A program made the position numbers and the translations under genes. A stretch of DNA of 64,000 nucleotides, taken from assembly GCA_027452245.1 (NCBI GenBank), contig DAIDGW010000035.1, forward strand, positions 29,961-93,960. Direction: 5' to 3'. Position 1 is the stretch's first letter, and the number at the start of each line of letters is the position of its first letter. This DNA comes from Acidobacteriaceae bacterium. GTDB taxonomy: Bacteria > Acidobacteriota > Terriglobia > Terriglobales > Acidobacteriaceae. Below, piece by piece: positions 50,637 to 59,449 of this stretch. A model generated the notes under the pieces. The model was given only the letters and a program-made list of their open reading frames with translations, had not been told where the DNA came from and did no database searches.

Positions 50637-51395
50637 TCAGGTTTCGGACTGCGGCGAACTGGAACCATGCAGTCCACATTCGGTTTTGGCGAAACCGGGC
50701 CAGCGACCGGCGCGAGGATCCTCGCCGGCAGAAACAGCACGCGTGCAGTGAGTGCAGCCGATGGTAGGATAGTTCTGCTGATGCAAGGGATTGAACGGAA
50801 CATCATACCGGTAGATGTAATCCCACACCTGGGCTGAGGTCCAATCGACGATGGGATTGATCTTAATCAGCCCGAACGAGGCGTCCCATTCAATTCGACG
50901 AGCGTGAGCGCGAGCGGAGGTCTGATCTCGGCGGATGCTGGTGATCCAGGCATTAAGTGTTCGCAGGTGCTGACGCAGGGGCTCAACCTTGCGCAGGCGG
51001 CAACACTGGTCGGGATCGCGTTCCCACAAATGCGGGCCATGGAGGCGGTCCTGTTCCTCGGGAGAAAGCTGGGGATAAATGCGCTCAATTGTGATGCCAT
51101 AGCGCCGCTCAATTGCTTCCATCAGCGAATACGTTTCCGGAAAAAGAAATTCGGTGTCGAGGGTAAACAGACGAAAGCGCACGCCCAGGCGCGATGCCAT
51201 ATCGGTGACAGTAACGCCTTCAGCCCCGAAGGCGGAAGAGACAGCAACTCGATCCCCAAAGGTCTGAAGAGCCCAGCGCAGGGTGTGTGCTGGAGTCCAC
51301 GACTCAGCCTGGGACTGCAATCCGGCCAGCAAATCCTGGCCATGCAAACGGTCATTCACGCAACTGGCTCCTTGGGTTGTAGAACGACTTGGCAT
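50637..51395 (-). CDS. cysH: Phosphoadenylyl/adenylyl-sulfate reductase, APS-reductase type
   Basis: AVSSAFGAEGVTVTDMASR, FTLDTEFLFPETY, CCRLRKVEPL, IGCTHCTRAVSAGEDPRAGRWPGFAKTECGLH (the Cys motifs of 4Fe-4S APS reductases). Confidence 0.93.
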   Translation of the reverse strand: MPSRSTTQGASCVNDRLHGQDLLAGLQSQAESWTPAHTLRWALQTFGDRVAVSSAFGAEGVTVTDMASRLGVRFRLFTLDTEFLFPETYSLMEAIERRYGITIERIYPQLSPEEQDRLHGPHLWERDPDQCCRLRKVEPLRQHLRTLNAWITSIRRDQTSARAHARRIEWDASFGLIKINPIVDWTSAQVWDYIYRYDVPFNPLHQQNYPTIGCTHCTRAVSAGEDPRAGRWPGFAKTECGLHGSSSPQSET

Positions 51396-52195
51396 TCCGA
51401 CAGTAGATTCTGAAGGATATCAGGGGGAAGAAGGTGTGCGATTCCGGTCTTAGGGGGCGATGTGGAAATCGGCGATGCATTCGAGCAAGCGGCGAACTGA
51501 ACGACGTCGCCGATGATCAGCAGGGCGGGAGCGGGCAGAACGGGGAGTTCTCTCAATTTCTGAAGAGAAGTGAGAGCCAATTCTTCGGCGGGAGTAGTAG
51601 CACGCGAGATTATGGCACAGGGAGTTTCACGCGAAACTCCAGCACGAACGAGGCGACGAGAAACTTCGGCGTAACCCGTACCAGGCATGTAAATGACCAG
51701 CGTGGCTCCGGGGACAATGAATTTTTCCCAGACAACGTCTTCAACGCTGGCGGCGGAGTGGGCTGTAATGAAAATAACGGCTGAAGAAACTCCACGAAGG
51801 GTCAATGGGAGTTGGGACGAAGCGGCCGCTCCAAGGGCAGAGGTCACGCCCGGAATGACTTCGCATTTGATTCCGGCCGCGCGCAAGGCTTGGAGTTCTT
51901 CGCCGGCGCGGCCGAAGATCATAGGATCGCCGCTCTTGAAGCGTACAACATGGAGTCCAGAAGCGGCGAGGGAGACCAAAAGAAAGCTGATTTCCTCCTG
52001 ACTGATTTTCTTTGCAGCGCAGCGCTTGCCGACGTTGAGGATTCGGATGCGAGGAGGGATCAGCTTAAGGATCTCGGGGAAAACGAGATCGTCATGCAAA
52101 ACCACGTCGGCTGATTGCAGCAGACGCAGGGCTTTCAGAGTAAGCAAATCCGGATCGCCCGGTCCGGCGCCAACCAAGGAGACTTTGCCTTTCAC
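51356..52195 (-). CDS. cobA: Uroporphyrinogen-III C-methyltransferase
   Basis: VSLVGAGPGDPDLLTLKALRLLQSADVVLHDDLV, VVRFKSGDPMIFGRAGEELQALRAAGI, VIPGVTSALGAAA. Confidence 0.95.
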   Translation of the reverse strand: MKGKVSLVGAGPGDPDLLTLKALRLLQSADVVLHDDLVFPEILKLIPPRIRILNVGKRCAAKKISQEEISFLLVSLAASGLHVVRFKSGDPMIFGRAGEELQALRAAGIKCEVIPGVTSALGAAASSQLPLTLRGVSSAVIFITAHSAASVEDVVWEKFIVPGATLVIYMPGTGYAEVSRRLVRAGVSRETPCAIISRATTPAEELALTSLQKLRELPVLPAPALLIIGDVVQFAACSNASPISTSPPKTGIAHLLPPDILQNLLSECQVVLQPKEPVA

Positions 52196-52809
52196 GCGCG
52201 GACTCCTTCCACCGGCTGTTTCTGTCTGTCTCGCGCCAGTTCAAACGCTTGCCGGCTGGCGAGGGAGTGCAATAGTTCGCTTTTGGTTTCAGGATCAAGA
52301 TCGCTGGCAAGGATCAGCTTTCGCGTTTCTCCAAGTTCGGCGACCCAAGGCGCATAAGCTGGTCCGAACTGCGTTTCAAGTTGCCTCCGCAATTTCTGCG
52401 CCAACGACGGGCTTTGGCCAGCGGTGGAGATGGCAATCTGGAGATAGCCGCGGCGGACGACCGCGGGATAGAAAAAGTCGGAGAGATCCGGGACATCGAC
52501 GACATTGCAGAGCACCCCGCGTTTTTGTGATTCGAGGAATATCGATTCGTCGAGAGAACGGGCACGGGTGGCGGCGATTACGAGAAAAACGTCGTCCAAG
52601 TCTTCGGGGGCGAAACCTCGAATGATGAGTTCAACTGTTCCCTGCTGGGCCCATGCGCGAACACGTTCGGAGGCTTCGCAGGCGACAACACGGATGAGAG
52701 CACCGGTGTCGAGGAGTCCGGCAATCTTCTGCTCTCCAACTGCGCCCGCACCCACGACGAGGCAGCGGCGGCCGGCAAGCTTCAGGAATACGGGAAACAG
52801 AGCGGTCAT
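52192..52809 (-). CDS. Precorrin-2 dehydrogenase / siroheme synthase N-terminal-type protein
   Basis: MTALFPVFLKLAGRRCLVVGAGAVGEQKIAGLLDTGA, CNVVDVPDLSDFFYPAVVRRGYLQIAISTAGQSPSLAQKLRR. Start set to ATG 52809, not the tracked 53148. Confidence 0.92.
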   Translation of the reverse strand: MTALFPVFLKLAGRRCLVVGAGAVGEQKIAGLLDTGALIRVVACEASERVRAWAQQGTVELIIRGFAPEDLDDVFLVIAATRARSLDESIFLESQKRGVLCNVVDVPDLSDFFYPAVVRRGYLQIAISTAGQSPSLAQKLRRQLETQFGPAYAPWVAELGETRKLILASDLDPETKSELLHSLASRQAFELARDRQKQPVEGVRA

Positions 52810-54521
52810 ACTTCGGCTCCGCTGGGAAGTCGTCCTGAGGGGAGGTCGCGAGCGACGGCATCGAGCGCTTGCCCGGCCAGAAATTCGCGGAGCTGATCGT
52901 TGCTGTGGCGGGCGAAGAACTGCCGCAGATTTTCGCCGCCTTCGCGGTCGATGAGGTAACGGCGGAGCAAACGTTCGATGGCCGCAGGAACATCGGCGGC
53001 GCGGCAGCGATATCCCACTGGGCGAGCGATGGACTGATGCAATCCCACAGCGCCCCCGAGACAAAAGTAATAAGCATCGAGGAGGCGACCCTGCTCTTTG
53101 ATTTTCTTGCCTTCGATGCCTATGTCGGCGATCCAGTGCTGGCCGCAACTATTGGGGCAGCCGGTAACGTGCAGTTTCAGATGCTGGTCGAAACCCGGAA
53201 GGAGTTCGTCCAGTTCTTCGGCAAGCCAGCGCGAAAAACTTTTGGTTTCAGTGATTGCGAGCTTGCAGAATTCGGTGCCGCTGCAGGCGACGATTCCGCG
53301 GTGGAACGCGGAACTGGCGACGGGCAATCCAATAGCGTCGAGTTCATTCGCGAGCGCGTTGGAACGGAGCCGAGGCACATTGGCGATGAGAAGGTTCTGC
53401 ATACTCGTGGTGCGCAACTCGCCAGAGGCGAAACGCTCAGAAAGTTCGGCGGCTGCACGCATCTGGTCGGCGGAGATGCGCCCTCGCAGAACCGAAGCGC
53501 CCACGTAGTGGAAACCATCGTGCTTTTGCGCGTGGATTCCGACATGATCGCGGTATTCGTCGGATGGCAGATACTCCTCGGGAGCAGTATCCAAATGGAA
53601 GCCAAGACGCTGATGTAACTCGTAGAGAAAACGGTCGGCAGTCCAGCCGTGTTGCAGAAAAAGAAACTTCAGGCGAGCGCGTTCGCGATGCTCACGGAGA
53701 ATGCCGGAGTCGCGAAAGATTTCAGCGATTCCCTTGAGAACCGGAATGACCTGGCCCCATGGAATGAACGCGTTGAGGCGAACACCGAGATGGGGATCGG
53801 TGGAAAGCCCTCCGGCAATACGGAGTGAGAAGCCAATGTGGCGCCTGCCGCGAGAATGGCGGGCTGTCGCCGTCAAACCGATGTCGTTGATTTCAGGATA
53901 TGGGCACCAGACTCGGCAGCCGGTGATACAAATTTTGAACTTGCGCGGCAGATTGTAAAATTCCGAATTACCGGCAAAGAACCGGGAGGCTTCAAGCGCG
54001 AGAGGCGAGGCATCGATTGTCTCGGCAGCATCGATACCTGCAACCGGACATCCGGTGATGTTTCGAGTCACGTCGCCGCACGCGCCCATTGTGTTCAGCC
54101 TAGCGCGGGTGAGGGTATCGAGAAGATCGGGGAGATCCGCGATGCTGACGTGATGGAGTTGAATATTCTGCCGAACCGTTATGTCGGCAATACCTCGAGC
54201 GTAGCGCTGGGCAAGATCAGCAATGGTGTGGAGTTGGGAGGAAGTAAGTAATCCGTTGGGAACACGAATGCGCACCATAAAGCGCTCGATGGACTTGCCT
54301 ACTCCTCCGTGGCCGCCGGTGACACCGAGGCCGTCTCCCTGGGTATAAACACCCCACCAGCGAAGATATGTTTCCAGCCAGTCGGGAGGGATGGAGCTAA
54401 AACCTTCTTGGGAAAAGCGGCGAATTTCGTCGAGACCTTTCCAGGGATTCTGCGCGCGCTTCAACCGCTCAGCCCGTTGGGTTTTTGTCTCTTTCATCGA
54501 ATTGGAAATGTCGGAAGCCAT
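52806..54521 (-). CDS. Ferredoxin-type nitrite/sulfite reductase
   Basis: FMVRIRVPNGLLTSSQL, VTRNITGCPVAGID, LPRKFKICITGCRVWCPYPEINDIG, CSGTEFCKLAITETK, LHVTGCPNSCGQHWIADIG. Start set to ATG 54521 after GGAAAA; tracked start 54536 is TTG. Confidence 0.93.
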   Translation of the reverse strand: MASDISNSMKETKTQRAERLKRAQNPWKGLDEIRRFSQEGFSSIPPDWLETYLRWWGVYTQGDGLGVTGGHGGVGKSIERFMVRIRVPNGLLTSSQLHTIADLAQRYARGIADITVRQNIQLHHVSIADLPDLLDTLTRARLNTMGACGDVTRNITGCPVAGIDAAETIDASPLALEASRFFAGNSEFYNLPRKFKICITGCRVWCPYPEINDIGLTATARHSRGRRHIGFSLRIAGGLSTDPHLGVRLNAFIPWGQVIPVLKGIAEIFRDSGILREHRERARLKFLFLQHGWTADRFLYELHQRLGFHLDTAPEEYLPSDEYRDHVGIHAQKHDGFHYVGASVLRGRISADQMRAAAELSERFASGELRTTSMQNLLIANVPRLRSNALANELDAIGLPVASSAFHRGIVACSGTEFCKLAITETKSFSRWLAEELDELLPGFDQHLKLHVTGCPNSCGQHWIADIGIEGKKIKEQGRLLDAYYFCLGGAVGLHQSIARPVGYRCRAADVPAAIERLLRRYLIDREGGENLRQFFARHSNDQLREFLAGQALDAVARDLPSGRLPSGAEV

Positions 54522-54540
54522 ATGTTTTCCAAACAAATGA

Positions 54541-54575
54541 AAAACCCACCGTCAGATTGCTCTGGCGATGGGTTT
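54541..54575 (-). terminator. Intrinsic terminator/attenuator hairpin in the sulfur operon leader
   Basis: Minus strand AAACCCATCGCCAGA-GCAA-TCTGACGGTGGGTTT then T (run of five T); 13 Watson-Crick pairs, one G-U, one mismatch; ends just before the reductase ribosome-binding region. Confidence 0.8.
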
Positions 54576-54600
54576 GGAATATGCCGGTCTTATGAAATTT

Positions 54601-54687
54601 CTAAGTCAGCCATCTCCCTGCGCCAGTGCACACGCATGCACAACAGCAACACATGCAAGTTGCGCGGCGATCAAGAAGAGCTGCCAT
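54601..54687 (-). CDS. Cysteine-rich leader peptide (28 aa), candidate attenuator uORF
   Basis: ATG GCA GCT CTT CTT GAT CGC CGC GCA ACT TGC ATG TGT TGC TGT TGT GCA TGC GTG TGC ACT GGC GCA GGG AGA TGG CTG ACT TAG = MAALLDRRATCMCCCCACVCTGAGRWLT. Confidence 0.82.
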   Translation of the reverse strand: MAALLDRRATCMCCCCACVCTGAGRWLT

Positions 54688-54698
54688 AACTTGCAGGG

Positions 54699-54728
54699 AT
54701 TCTACGTGCGGGCCCTTAGGCGCGTCAA
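54699..54728 (-). promoter_or_regulatory. Sigma70-like promoter for the leader and sulfur operon
   Basis: TTGACG (54728-54723), 18-nt spacer, TAGAAT (54704-54699); predicted start about 4-6 nt before the leader ATG at 54687. Confidence 0.65.
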
Positions 54729-56912: not shown

Positions 56913-58112
56913 CTAGGTTGTTCCGTGCGCCGGAGTTGTCCCGGAGGCGGGAAGAGAACCCGCGTCTGGCCACGGCGGCAGGAGTTTCACGAGAACCCAC
57001 AAGATTCCGAAAGGAAGAATCATCAGCACAATCGCGGTCAGCAGGCCTTCACGCGTGGCAAAGCCCATTTTATAAGTGGTGTATCCGAGGAAGCTTTTAG
57101 AAAAAAGCTGGCCGCCTATAACAACGTTCCATCGCATGGCAAAGATGCCGACAACCGTCAGAGAGCCAGCGATGGCATAAATCCGTTTGCGCGCCGTGTC
57201 GGTGAGCGTAAGGACCTGGGTCAAACCCAGCAGCACGATCGGCGTTACGGTGCCGAGAAGAATTTGAATGATGACTTGCGAGGTCCACAGCCGGGTATGG
57301 ACCATGAAATCAAGACTGCGGAAGGATTCGTCGGCCTCATAGATGCGCTGCAATAGATCGAGCATCTCAAGGCTGAAGTCGATGACAAAGGTATAGAGCA
57401 GGTAGCGTGCGATCGTGTCGACACATCGCATGTCGATGGTCCGGGTCCGGAGGTGGGTTGTCAGCATGTAGAGCAACATCACCGCCGCGATGCCCGATAC
57501 CATCGCTGAAAAGATGAAAACAATCGGCATCAAGGGAGACGACCACCATGGGTTTGCCTTGACCGATCCGAAGATGAAACCAACGTAGCCGTGAAGCAGG
57601 AAGGCGGAAGGGATGCCGATCAGGGTGATGAAATAACCGAGTCTTTCATCAATGCGCAGCGAGCGCTCGCTGATGTTATTGGAACCCAGGCTGAGCAGCC
57701 GATACAGGAGACGGGTGAATCCCTGCGAGGTCTGCGCCTTCAAAACGATGTCACGGCGGTAGTCGAGCCAGATCTCCAATAACAGGACCGCCATCAGATA
57801 CCAGAGATAAACGAACCCGAACATGGCCATGGCGGAGGAACGGTGCGGCGTGAGATACATTTCGAAGGAGCGCTCGGGATGCCCGAGGTGCAGTTGCAGT
57901 GGCATGGGCGCAACCAGAAGGAACGAGAGCGCCGTCAACAATGCCAGACGGTAGGTCGGCTTAACCGCTTCCACGCGGAAGACGCGCTCCAGTGAAGCCA
58001 GAATAAATGCGCCCGCAACCAGTCCCGTGATGTAGGGATAAAGGACGATGAGGACACTCCACTGGAGTTCCACCTCGTTGGGATACATGAAGCCTTCGAC
58101 CGGGATTTGCAC
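56913..58112 (-). CDS. NrfD/PsrC-family membrane subunit
   Basis: Eight or more TM helices; LRLALLTALSFLLVAPMPLQLHLGHPERSFEMYLTPHRSSAMAMFGFVYLWYL region; adjacent to a ferredoxin-like subunit. Confidence 0.85.
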   Translation of the reverse strand: MQIPVEGFMYPNEVELQWSVLIVLYPYITGLVAGAFILASLERVFRVEAVKPTYRLALLTALSFLLVAPMPLQLHLGHPERSFEMYLTPHRSSAMAMFGFVYLWYLMAVLLLEIWLDYRRDIVLKAQTSQGFTRLLYRLLSLGSNNISERSLRIDERLGYFITLIGIPSAFLLHGYVGFIFGSVKANPWWSSPLMPIVFIFSAMVSGIAAVMLLYMLTTHLRTRTIDMRCVDTIARYLLYTFVIDFSLEMLDLLQRIYEADESFRSLDFMVHTRLWTSQVIIQILLGTVTPIVLLGLTQVLTLTDTARKRIYAIAGSLTVVGIFAMRWNVVIGGQLFSKSFLGYTTYKMGFATREGLLTAIVLMILPFGILWVLVKLLPPWPDAGSLPASGTTPAHGTT

Positions 58113-58133
58113 GAGCCTCCTTACGACGACGAC

Positions 58134-58865
58134 TTAACGAACGGAACCATCCATGCCGTTGTAAAAAACCTTTGCTCCTGTGGCCATGTGCGGCTTCAGC
58201 ACCTGTACGGTGTGAGTCCGCAGGAATTCATGAATCGGATCATTGGGATTCTTCAGGTCCGCCAGTTGGCGAGCACCCGTCGGGCAGACTTCACAACACG
58301 CCGTGGTCAGGCCCTTGGTGATGCGGTGATAGCAAAGGGTGCACTTTTCCGCAGTGTTGGTTTTGGGATTGATGAACCGGCAGCCATAGGGGCAGGCCTG
58401 GACGCAATAACGACAGCCGAGACAGTAAGTCTTGTCGACCAGCACGACACCGTCGGGAGTGCTGAAGGTTGCGCCCACGGGACAAACCTGCGTGCAGGGA
58501 GAATCTGAGCAGTGGTTGCAAAGCTTGGGGACGAAGAAATTCTTGCCGCCACTTTCTTCGTTGGGCGGAAAACCCTGCTTGCCACCGTTGGGCGATTCCA
58601 CCTCCGGCCTTTCAATTTTCCAATCGGAGACGTGGTAACGCTCGACCCAGGTGCGGAAATATCCCTCAGGGACATCGTTTTCGTTGGCACAAGCGCGCAC
58701 ACAACTGCCACAACCGATGCACTTGGGGATATCGATCAGCATGGCCCACCAGTGGTCGGTGAGCTTGTAATTAGGAGAAGACTCGGGCGTGCCCGCCTCG
58801 ACATACTTCCAGGCCACAGCAGCGGCGGGCAAAAGCATCAGCAGACGGCGGCGGGAGAGATCCAT
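58134..58865 (-). CDS. 4Fe-4S dicluster ferredoxin-like electron transfer subunit
   Basis: CIGCGSCVRACANENDVPEG, CNHCSDSPCTQVCPVGATF, CLGCRYCVQACPYGCRFINP, CTLCYHR...CCEVCPTGAR. Confidence 0.93.
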   Translation of the reverse strand: MDLSRRRLLMLLPAAAVAWKYVEAGTPESSPNYKLTDHWWAMLIDIPKCIGCGSCVRACANENDVPEGYFRTWVERYHVSDWKIERPEVESPNGGKQGFPPNEESGGKNFFVPKLCNHCSDSPCTQVCPVGATFSTPDGVVLVDKTYCLGCRYCVQACPYGCRFINPKTNTAEKCTLCYHRITKGLTTACCEVCPTGARQLADLKNPNDPIHEFLRTHTVQVLKPHMATGAKVFYNGMDGSVR

Positions 58866-59449
58866 TAGTTTTTCCTCCCCGACGCGGCCGTCTTTTCGTC
58901 TTCAATTCTTGGCTTATGCGGCTGGTGGCAGGTATCGCAGGCAACCCCGCCGGAATGATCGGCGGTCACCACCTGTGGGAACCATTTGGGTTTGGCGCTG
59001 TTGGCCTCGTGACAACGAGCACAGAGAACGGCGGTGTCGAGTTTGGGCGGAGTAACCGACGCGGGATCGTCGGCATGCTTAGCCAAGGGGCCATGGCAAG
59101 CTTCGCACGGGACGCCAACATGCTTGCCGAGCTTCTTTTGCTCGACGACATCGGTATGGCAGCCCTCGCAGACAGTGTGGCCGGCATAAGAAATCGGATG
59201 GGCGGCCGCCTCAGCGATAGCGGCTCCTCGGTAGTGGCCGTACTGTCCAAAGGAGCGAGGGACAACGGCAGCACGCAACACAATGAAGGCGATCAGGCCA
59301 ATCGCCATGACAGCAGCCAGACGGATGAGGTGTTCTATGTCTTTGAACACGTGGTTTTTTCCATGCGCCGGAGTCTGGATCGCAGGACCCGAAAAGCGCA
59401 TTGTTCTTCGATACCGAGTAATTTTGTTTCGAACGATGACCGGGGTCAC
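58865..59449 (-). CDS. Membrane-anchored tetraheme cytochrome c
   Basis: Four CxxCH motifs: CEGCH, CEACH, CARCH, CDTCH; N-terminal TM helix. Confidence 0.85.
   Translation of the reverse strand: MTPVIVRNKITRYRRTMRFSGPAIQTPAHGKNHVFKDIEHLIRLAAVMAIGLIAFIVLRAAVVPRSFGQYGHYRGAAIAEAAAHPISYAGHTVCEGCHTDVVEQKKLGKHVGVPCEACHGPLAKHADDPASVTPPKLDTAVLCARCHEANSAKPKWFPQVVTADHSGGVACDTCHQPHKPRIEDEKTAASGRKN

Follow-up and report, generated by a model that had tools for sequence, protein, structure and literature searches.

The window considered here (the whole 64,000-nt stretch of DNA analysed) derives from a genome of 6.23 Mb and 97.6% completeness belonging to a soil bacterium of the Terriglobales (Acidobacteriota), referred to below as G000, whose closest compared relatives are Candidatus Sulfotelmatobacter and other Terriglobales, with reductase identities of 70-73%. 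On the minus strand of the window, an operon of overlapping genes runs in the order sir/nirA-cysG-cobA-cysH. Its leading gene, which we predict to be the regulated one, encodes a NirA/Sir-like sulfite/nitrite reductase (52806..54521, ATG at 54521) with Pfam matches to NIR_SIR and NIR_SIR_ferr, and domain and family matches identify the genes that follow as a precorrin-2 dehydrogenase with the CysG N-domain (siroheme synthase; 52192..52809), a uroporphyrinogen-III C-methyltransferase (cobA; 51356..52195) and the (phospho)adenylyl-sulfate reductase cysH (50637..51395). NCBIfam equivalog cut-offs were not reached for the reductase, and consequently its substrate cannot be assigned by sequence. 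A second, distant NIR_SIR-like fragment (37%) is present at a contig end elsewhere in G000 (C50:98-961, locus L002). The window also contains, upstream of the leader described below (56913-59449, minus strand), what appear to be an NrfD/PsrC-like membrane protein, a 4Fe-4S ferredoxin-type subunit and a multihaem cytochrome c-like protein, names that were given from reading the sequence only. Among the compared loci, that of Candidatus Sulfotelmatobacter sp. JOPF005 (L016) is apparently the same as L092 from genome G191, which is assigned to the genus of the window (identity and leader both agree).

Ahead of the reductase lies a short ORF of 28 codons plus TAG, encoding MAALLDRRATCMCCCCACVCTGAGRWLT (54601..54687, minus strand; ATG 54687-54685, TAG 54603-54601), which is read directly and has homologous leaders in other genomes. 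Its codons 11-20 (54628..54657) include 7 Cys codons, and we consider them a regulatory tract on the evidence of the ORF, of shuffled sequences and of codon conservation. Upstream on the same strand are a -35 box, TTGACG (54723..54728), where a TTGACA/G-type box is kept in most relatives, and, after an 18-nt spacer, a -10 box, TAGAAT (54699..54704), recognised by its sequence and conservation and lying 11 nt from the leader ATG. Downstream, 25 nt beyond the TAG, folding and pair counts place an intrinsic terminator (54540..54575) that consists of a hairpin (54575-54542) with a GCAA loop (54560-54557) and a T-run (54544-54540), about 18-19 nt from the reductase ATG. An initial sequence-only reading of the window had already described the 28-aa ORF with 7 Cys codons in 10, the promoter with its spacings and the hairpin with its T-run, all of which are exact in the sequence, and the sulfite/nitrite reductase-siroheme-cysH genes that it placed after the leader are borne out by the Pfam and family matches.

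The Cys cluster is not explained by chance: across 5000 dinucleotide shuffles of the 300-nt upstream region, 7 Cys in 12 residues never arose within an ORF, and the highest count was 6, reached three times. Taken singly, the promoter match is at chance level (1 found vs 1.0 expected in 1.5 kb) and the imperfect stem of the hairpin was missed by a simple terminator scanner, so that the significance of both comes from their conservation. Compared with shuffles, the segment from leader to terminator has a better fold (z = -2.3), and at Rfam gathering thresholds no riboswitch, T-box or other curated RNA family matched at the locus. Among 77 sir leaders, 65 have a sigma-70 promoter that agrees with the consensus at no fewer than 9 of its 12 bases and stops 6-14 nt short of the start codon, most commonly 9-10 nt, and the commonest distance in leaders of 1-Cys peroxiredoxin genes (prx) is 5-6 nt. 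Given this spacing, the leader mRNA is probably leaderless or nearly so. For the window, the predicted transcription start zone (54689..54694, minus strand; 5-8 nt past the -10 box) is inferred and unmapped, and would imply a 5' UTR of about 1-7 nt. More generally, we infer that the 5' UTR is absent or only a few nucleotides long, without room for a Shine-Dalgarno sequence; this inference assumes normal start-site selection, and rests on strong positional conservation in the absence of mapped 5' ends.

Conservation was assessed over about 110 reductase loci from named public genomes and the family of the window. Nearly all Acidobacteriota loci above approximately 65% identity possess a Cys-rich short ORF ending about 50-110 nt ahead of the gene (e.g. 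MTSFSNLRQICMCACCCCACVCSGAGRLLT in L036 and MSSSQNLRATCCCTCCCCACVCTGAGRLLT in L032), and no Cys-cluster ORF was found at reductase loci in genomes labelled Methylomirabilota or Rokubacteria. In a blind count (threshold: at least 4 Cys in 12 residues), a poly-Cys ORF was present in 82% of 88 distinct sir upstream regions, vs 3.9% of shuffles and 1.1% of reverse strands, and the same count gave 70% for prx, 73% for cysD and 3% for cysM. Absences among close relatives are partly technical, since Ns cover the leader in L058 and fewer Cys are present in L065. The sequence-only reading had named an unconserved Cys run as a result that would refute it; instead, the Cys codons are conserved across many species.

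The N-terminal part of the leader drifts across species while the Cys codons are kept, and TGT and TGC interchange among them (320:183). In 72 leaders placed in one register, TGC and TGT mix at codons -12, -11 and -10 in ratios of 26:11, 19:13 and 25:19, and most differences in tract length in the alignment are multiples of three. In the stretch that follows, codon 0 is TCT, ACT or GCT, such that the residue varies between Ser, Thr and Ala while the bases CT are fixed; the Gly codon after the Cys tract is GGC in 70 of the 72 leaders. Of these leaders, 66 end at the same stop position, with either TAA or TAG. Synonymous swapping of the Cys codons next to a base-fixed stretch indicates that the Cys tract is maintained as codons, and the segment after it (CTGGC, within arm 2 below) as RNA. 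In one leader (L004:4845-4977), a one-base insertion directly after the Cys tract replaces the C-terminal peptide and keeps the arm 2 RNA; this may be either a natural frameshift or an assembly error.

As predicted from sequence, the leader region is a classic four-arm attenuator architecture. On the minus strand of the window, arm 1 (54666..54683) forms the 5' side of a protector hairpin 1:2 in the RNA fold of the leader; arm 2 (CTGGCGcaGGGAG..., 54608..54626), supported by duplex tests, codon conservation and folding, can pair with arm 1 or arm 3; an inner stem around the stop codon (54582..54614), seen in the fold, belongs to the antiterminator; and arm 3 (AAACCCATCGCCAGA, 54561..54575), supported by pair counts and folding, is both the 5' arm of the terminator and the partner of arm 2. 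The arm 2 consensus TCTGGCG is the reverse complement of CGCCAGA in arm 3, and many relatives carry an extra copy of CGCCAGA ahead of the Cys codons as arm 1. Duplexes between arms 2 and 3 are stronger than in shuffles (mean z of -2.39 for sir and -1.94 for prx), with z below -1.64 in 75% of sir leaders, while arm 1:2 complementarity over the sir leaders is moderately above shuffles (mean z of -1.35) and weaker than 2:3, the protector hairpin being present in the window fold. The arms also covary across gene families (TCTGGCG/CGCCAGA in sir, GCGGGTG/CACCCGC in prx), those of a rhodanese-gene leader (L285) being CTTCGGCG/CGCCGGAG, and cysD leaders have weaker terminators. RNAalifold returned only 6 outer terminator pairs from a diverse alignment, since no one consensus can accommodate arms that exclude one another and spacers that vary, and pair counts for the named structures were used in its place. 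Over 65 aligned sequences, 86.4% of 2:3 cells were paired vs 38.6-46.2% with slid partners (double changes at 4 pairs), and 92.9% of 3:4 cells vs 32.2-52.1% (double changes at 5 pairs), with the caveat that slid-partner controls do not fully remove relatedness. Duplexes, pair counts and the window fold thus agree on what an attenuator requires, namely an antiterminator just after the control codons that excludes the terminator.

When the window was folded with a ribosome whose A site lies at Cys codons 11-16, and with arm 4 absent, arm 2 captured arm 3, the two forming a hairpin with 25-28 pairs and an energy of -22.4 to -25.4 kcal/mol. This hairpin is weaker once the ribosome is beyond codon 18, and a ribosome that has reached the stop codon leaves arm 3 no strong partner other than the terminator, which forms. 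A ribosome stalled at the last two Cys codons would already mask arm 2. At equilibrium, once arm 4 exists, every case favours the terminator, that of the stalled ribosome included, and antitermination therefore has to be kinetic, as in other attenuators. Co-transcriptional simulation of many leaders sequestered arm 3 at a mean of 0.64 vs 0.43 for shuffled spacers, although leader by leader the difference was significant in only about 20%.

The element is not confined to sir. Using a covariance model together with gene-based and pattern-based searches, we found poly-Cys leaders at 35 of 50 prx loci and 22 of 30 cysD loci. The prx loci include a second leader in G000 itself, outside the window (L232, C43:414-473; MTHLRPAGVCCCMRASACG, GTG start at 414), with a promoter, TTGACA/TATCCT, 6 nt ahead of the GTG and a terminator, ACCCACCCGTGACGAAATCGGGTGGGTTTT. 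Rhodanese and SrpI (type 2A encapsulin) operons carry poly-Cys leaders at L145, L147, L153 and L285, which predicts induction of the encapsulin by cysteine shortage; the same operon and terminator occur at L146 and L160, where the region read shows fewer Cys codons. Further leaders precede a cysteine synthase with a Mov34/JAMM-like protein (family f84), cysH-sir (family f19), a second reductase type, cysK in G047, and YeeE/YedE-like, YeiH-like (PF03601) and sulfide:quinone-oxidoreductase-like genes. Leaders before these sulfur and thiol genes mostly have terminators; several of the gene names come from reading the sequence, and only part of them were tested against Pfam. Another candidate member, cysM (family f1), was rejected, having a leader at 0 of 30 loci, and serves as a negative control.

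A pattern joining the terminator to three Cys codons matched in 46 of 101 genomes of the family, and its reversed control matched in none. G000 yields exactly two matches, sir and prx, and most inspected matches precede sulfur or thiol genes, with no evident sulfur gene downstream of those at L295, L297, L320, L321 and L323. Across the phylum the pattern matched 17 of 396 genomes, almost only in the window's family and with one match probably due to chance, from which we infer that the terminator, in its exact sequence, is specific to the lineage; arms of variant sequence occur in other families (L148, L150, L152, L161, L165, L169). Within the same family, short ORFs packed with Ile, Leu and Val codons occur upstream of ilvD (L154, L328, L330, L333, L336, L341), with the same terminator type at L154, and are candidate branched-chain amino-acid attenuators. 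Separately, a Met/Cys-rich minus-strand leader at L159 (MCCMAMPMRGPSALGGMLM) with a terminator precedes a PLP enzyme of Cys/Met metabolism, apparently an O-acetylhomoserine sulfhydrylase.

We consider the element to be a cysteine-responsive, ribosome-mediated transcription attenuator, at a probability of roughly 0.88; no transcript, ribosome or expression data exist. Attenuation by cysteine had been proposed for this locus in the sequence-only reading, and gains support from Cys-codon conservation, competing pairings and recurrence before sulfur genes, the expression response itself being inferred. The leader also precedes genes of the pathway of the amino acid it would sense (reductase, siroheme genes, cysH), as attenuation demands. 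To that single-locus proposal our analyses add the competing antiterminator, at least two elements in the genome and a regulon of several gene families; we judge the predicted attenuator to belong to a multi-operon regulon wider than was suggested. The parts, their conservation, the codon-level constraint on Cys, the competing pairings and the recurrence are demonstrated by the comparisons above, and leader translation, the start site, stalling and read-through are inferred. In the proposed sequence of events, the sigma-70 promoter would start the mRNA with the first codon at, or within a few nucleotides of, its 5' end, and a ribosome would trail RNA polymerase through the 28-codon leader. Under scarcity of Cys-tRNA, the ribosome would stall in the Cys tract (codons 11-16), covering arm 1 and leaving arm 2, just downstream, free to pair with arm 3 once this is made, so that no terminator would form and sir-cysG-cobA-cysH would be transcribed. 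With plentiful cysteine, the ribosome would reach the stop codon, arm 2 would be covered or re-paired with arm 1, arm 3 would pair with arm 4, and transcription would stop.

Several alternative explanations merit consideration. Stalling might alter access to the ribosome-binding site of the reductase, and not transcription, as in mycobacteria, where near-leaderless poly-Cys sORFs before cysteine genes have the same arrangement (PMC9031893; PMC9094748). However, relatives keep a T-run hairpin in the interval from leader to gene (92.9% of cells paired, as above), it ends 19 nt before the reductase ATG and leaves the gene start region outside, and arm 2 complements the terminator arm and not the start region, which together render translational attenuation improbable here. 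Less probable still is that the ORF exists for the sake of its peptide, which would be a small Cys-rich protein that binds metals or thiols and acts in trans. Its high Cys content and the C-terminal SGAGRLLT conserved in sir leaders would suit such a role, yet C-terminal conservation tracks RNA pairing and not residues; the C-terminus changes with the terminators in prx (RVCS, PVCG) and cysD leaders, tract length and non-Cys residues drift, and in L004 a change of frame directly follows the Cys tract but spares the RNA arm. Finally, the terminator could belong to the upstream unit and the ORF be accidental, as the upstream genes share the strand and the promoter match, taken by itself, does not exceed chance, but the absence of 7-Cys ORFs among the 5000 shuffles, the near-zero reverse-strand and cysM controls, and conservation of the element in dozens of species before several gene families leave next to no room for coincidence.

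Cysteine-responsive attenuation of this kind has partial precedents. Mycobacterial polycysteine leaderless sORFs (Canestrari et al. 2020, as cited in PMC9031893 and PMC9094748) are reported to regulate translation of downstream genes (PMC9031893), and they share with the acidobacterial leaders contiguous Cys codons, a probable leaderless start, association with cysteine-gene operons and several loci per genome. In contrast to the mycobacterial leaders, which lack conserved terminator hairpins (PMC1262725), the acidobacterial ORF, in a different phylum, is followed by a conserved intrinsic terminator and competing antiterminator; control without an intrinsic terminator is thus not met at the acidobacterial locus, and a leaderless start fits the promoter spacing with the start site unmapped. 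For cys operons of Mycobacterium, Propionibacterium acnes and Bifidobacterium, candidate Cys leader peptides have been described (PMC1262725) that likewise have runs of Cys codons ahead of cysteine genes, but without a conserved terminator and with the Cys codons near the stop codon. The uORFC-8-2 of Rhodobacterales, proposed to be a ribosome-mediated attenuator, similarly combines a conserved Cys-codon uORF with an intrinsic terminator (PMC8632094). However, it has two tandem Cys codons, at positions 14-15, and is found only before cysS (PMC8632094), whereas acidobacterial leaders typically have 4-9 Cys codons and precede assimilation and thiol genes, that of the window having 7 and preceding sir. 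Attenuators of the trp/his type share the control-codon leader ORF, arms 1:2, 2:3 and 3:4 and the intrinsic terminator, and differ from the present leaders in the cysteine signal, the very short or absent 5' UTR and the multi-operon use that includes peroxiredoxin and the encapsulin operon. The class of mechanism is therefore known from mycobacterial sORFs and uORFC-8-2, and the acidobacterial regulon appears to be undescribed. We found no acidobacterial leader-peptide attenuator in the open-access literature, subscription papers being outside our scope, and the novelty that the sequence-only reading had inferred is accordingly likely and remains unproven.

A broader proposal is that, in the Terriglobales (with variants in other Acidobacteriota), near-leaderless poly-Cys attenuators are the principal global control of cysteine, replacing a protein regulator or riboswitch, and forming a regulon governed by the speed of translation, whose members would be the genes that reduce sulfate and sulfite, cysteine synthase, the 1-Cys peroxiredoxin and the operon of SrpI encapsulin and rhodanese; this is tentative, and we hold it at somewhat less than even odds. 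The findings suggest that poly-Cys leaders with nearly leaderless starts evolved in two phyla far apart, with differing outputs, translation in mycobacteria vs transcription termination in Acidobacteriota. They would also provide one class of leader with its signal, its mechanism and the genes it controls, in a soil phylum that is abundant and poorly studied, and predict that peroxiredoxin and the encapsulin operon are cysteine-starvation genes, a prediction that is directly testable.
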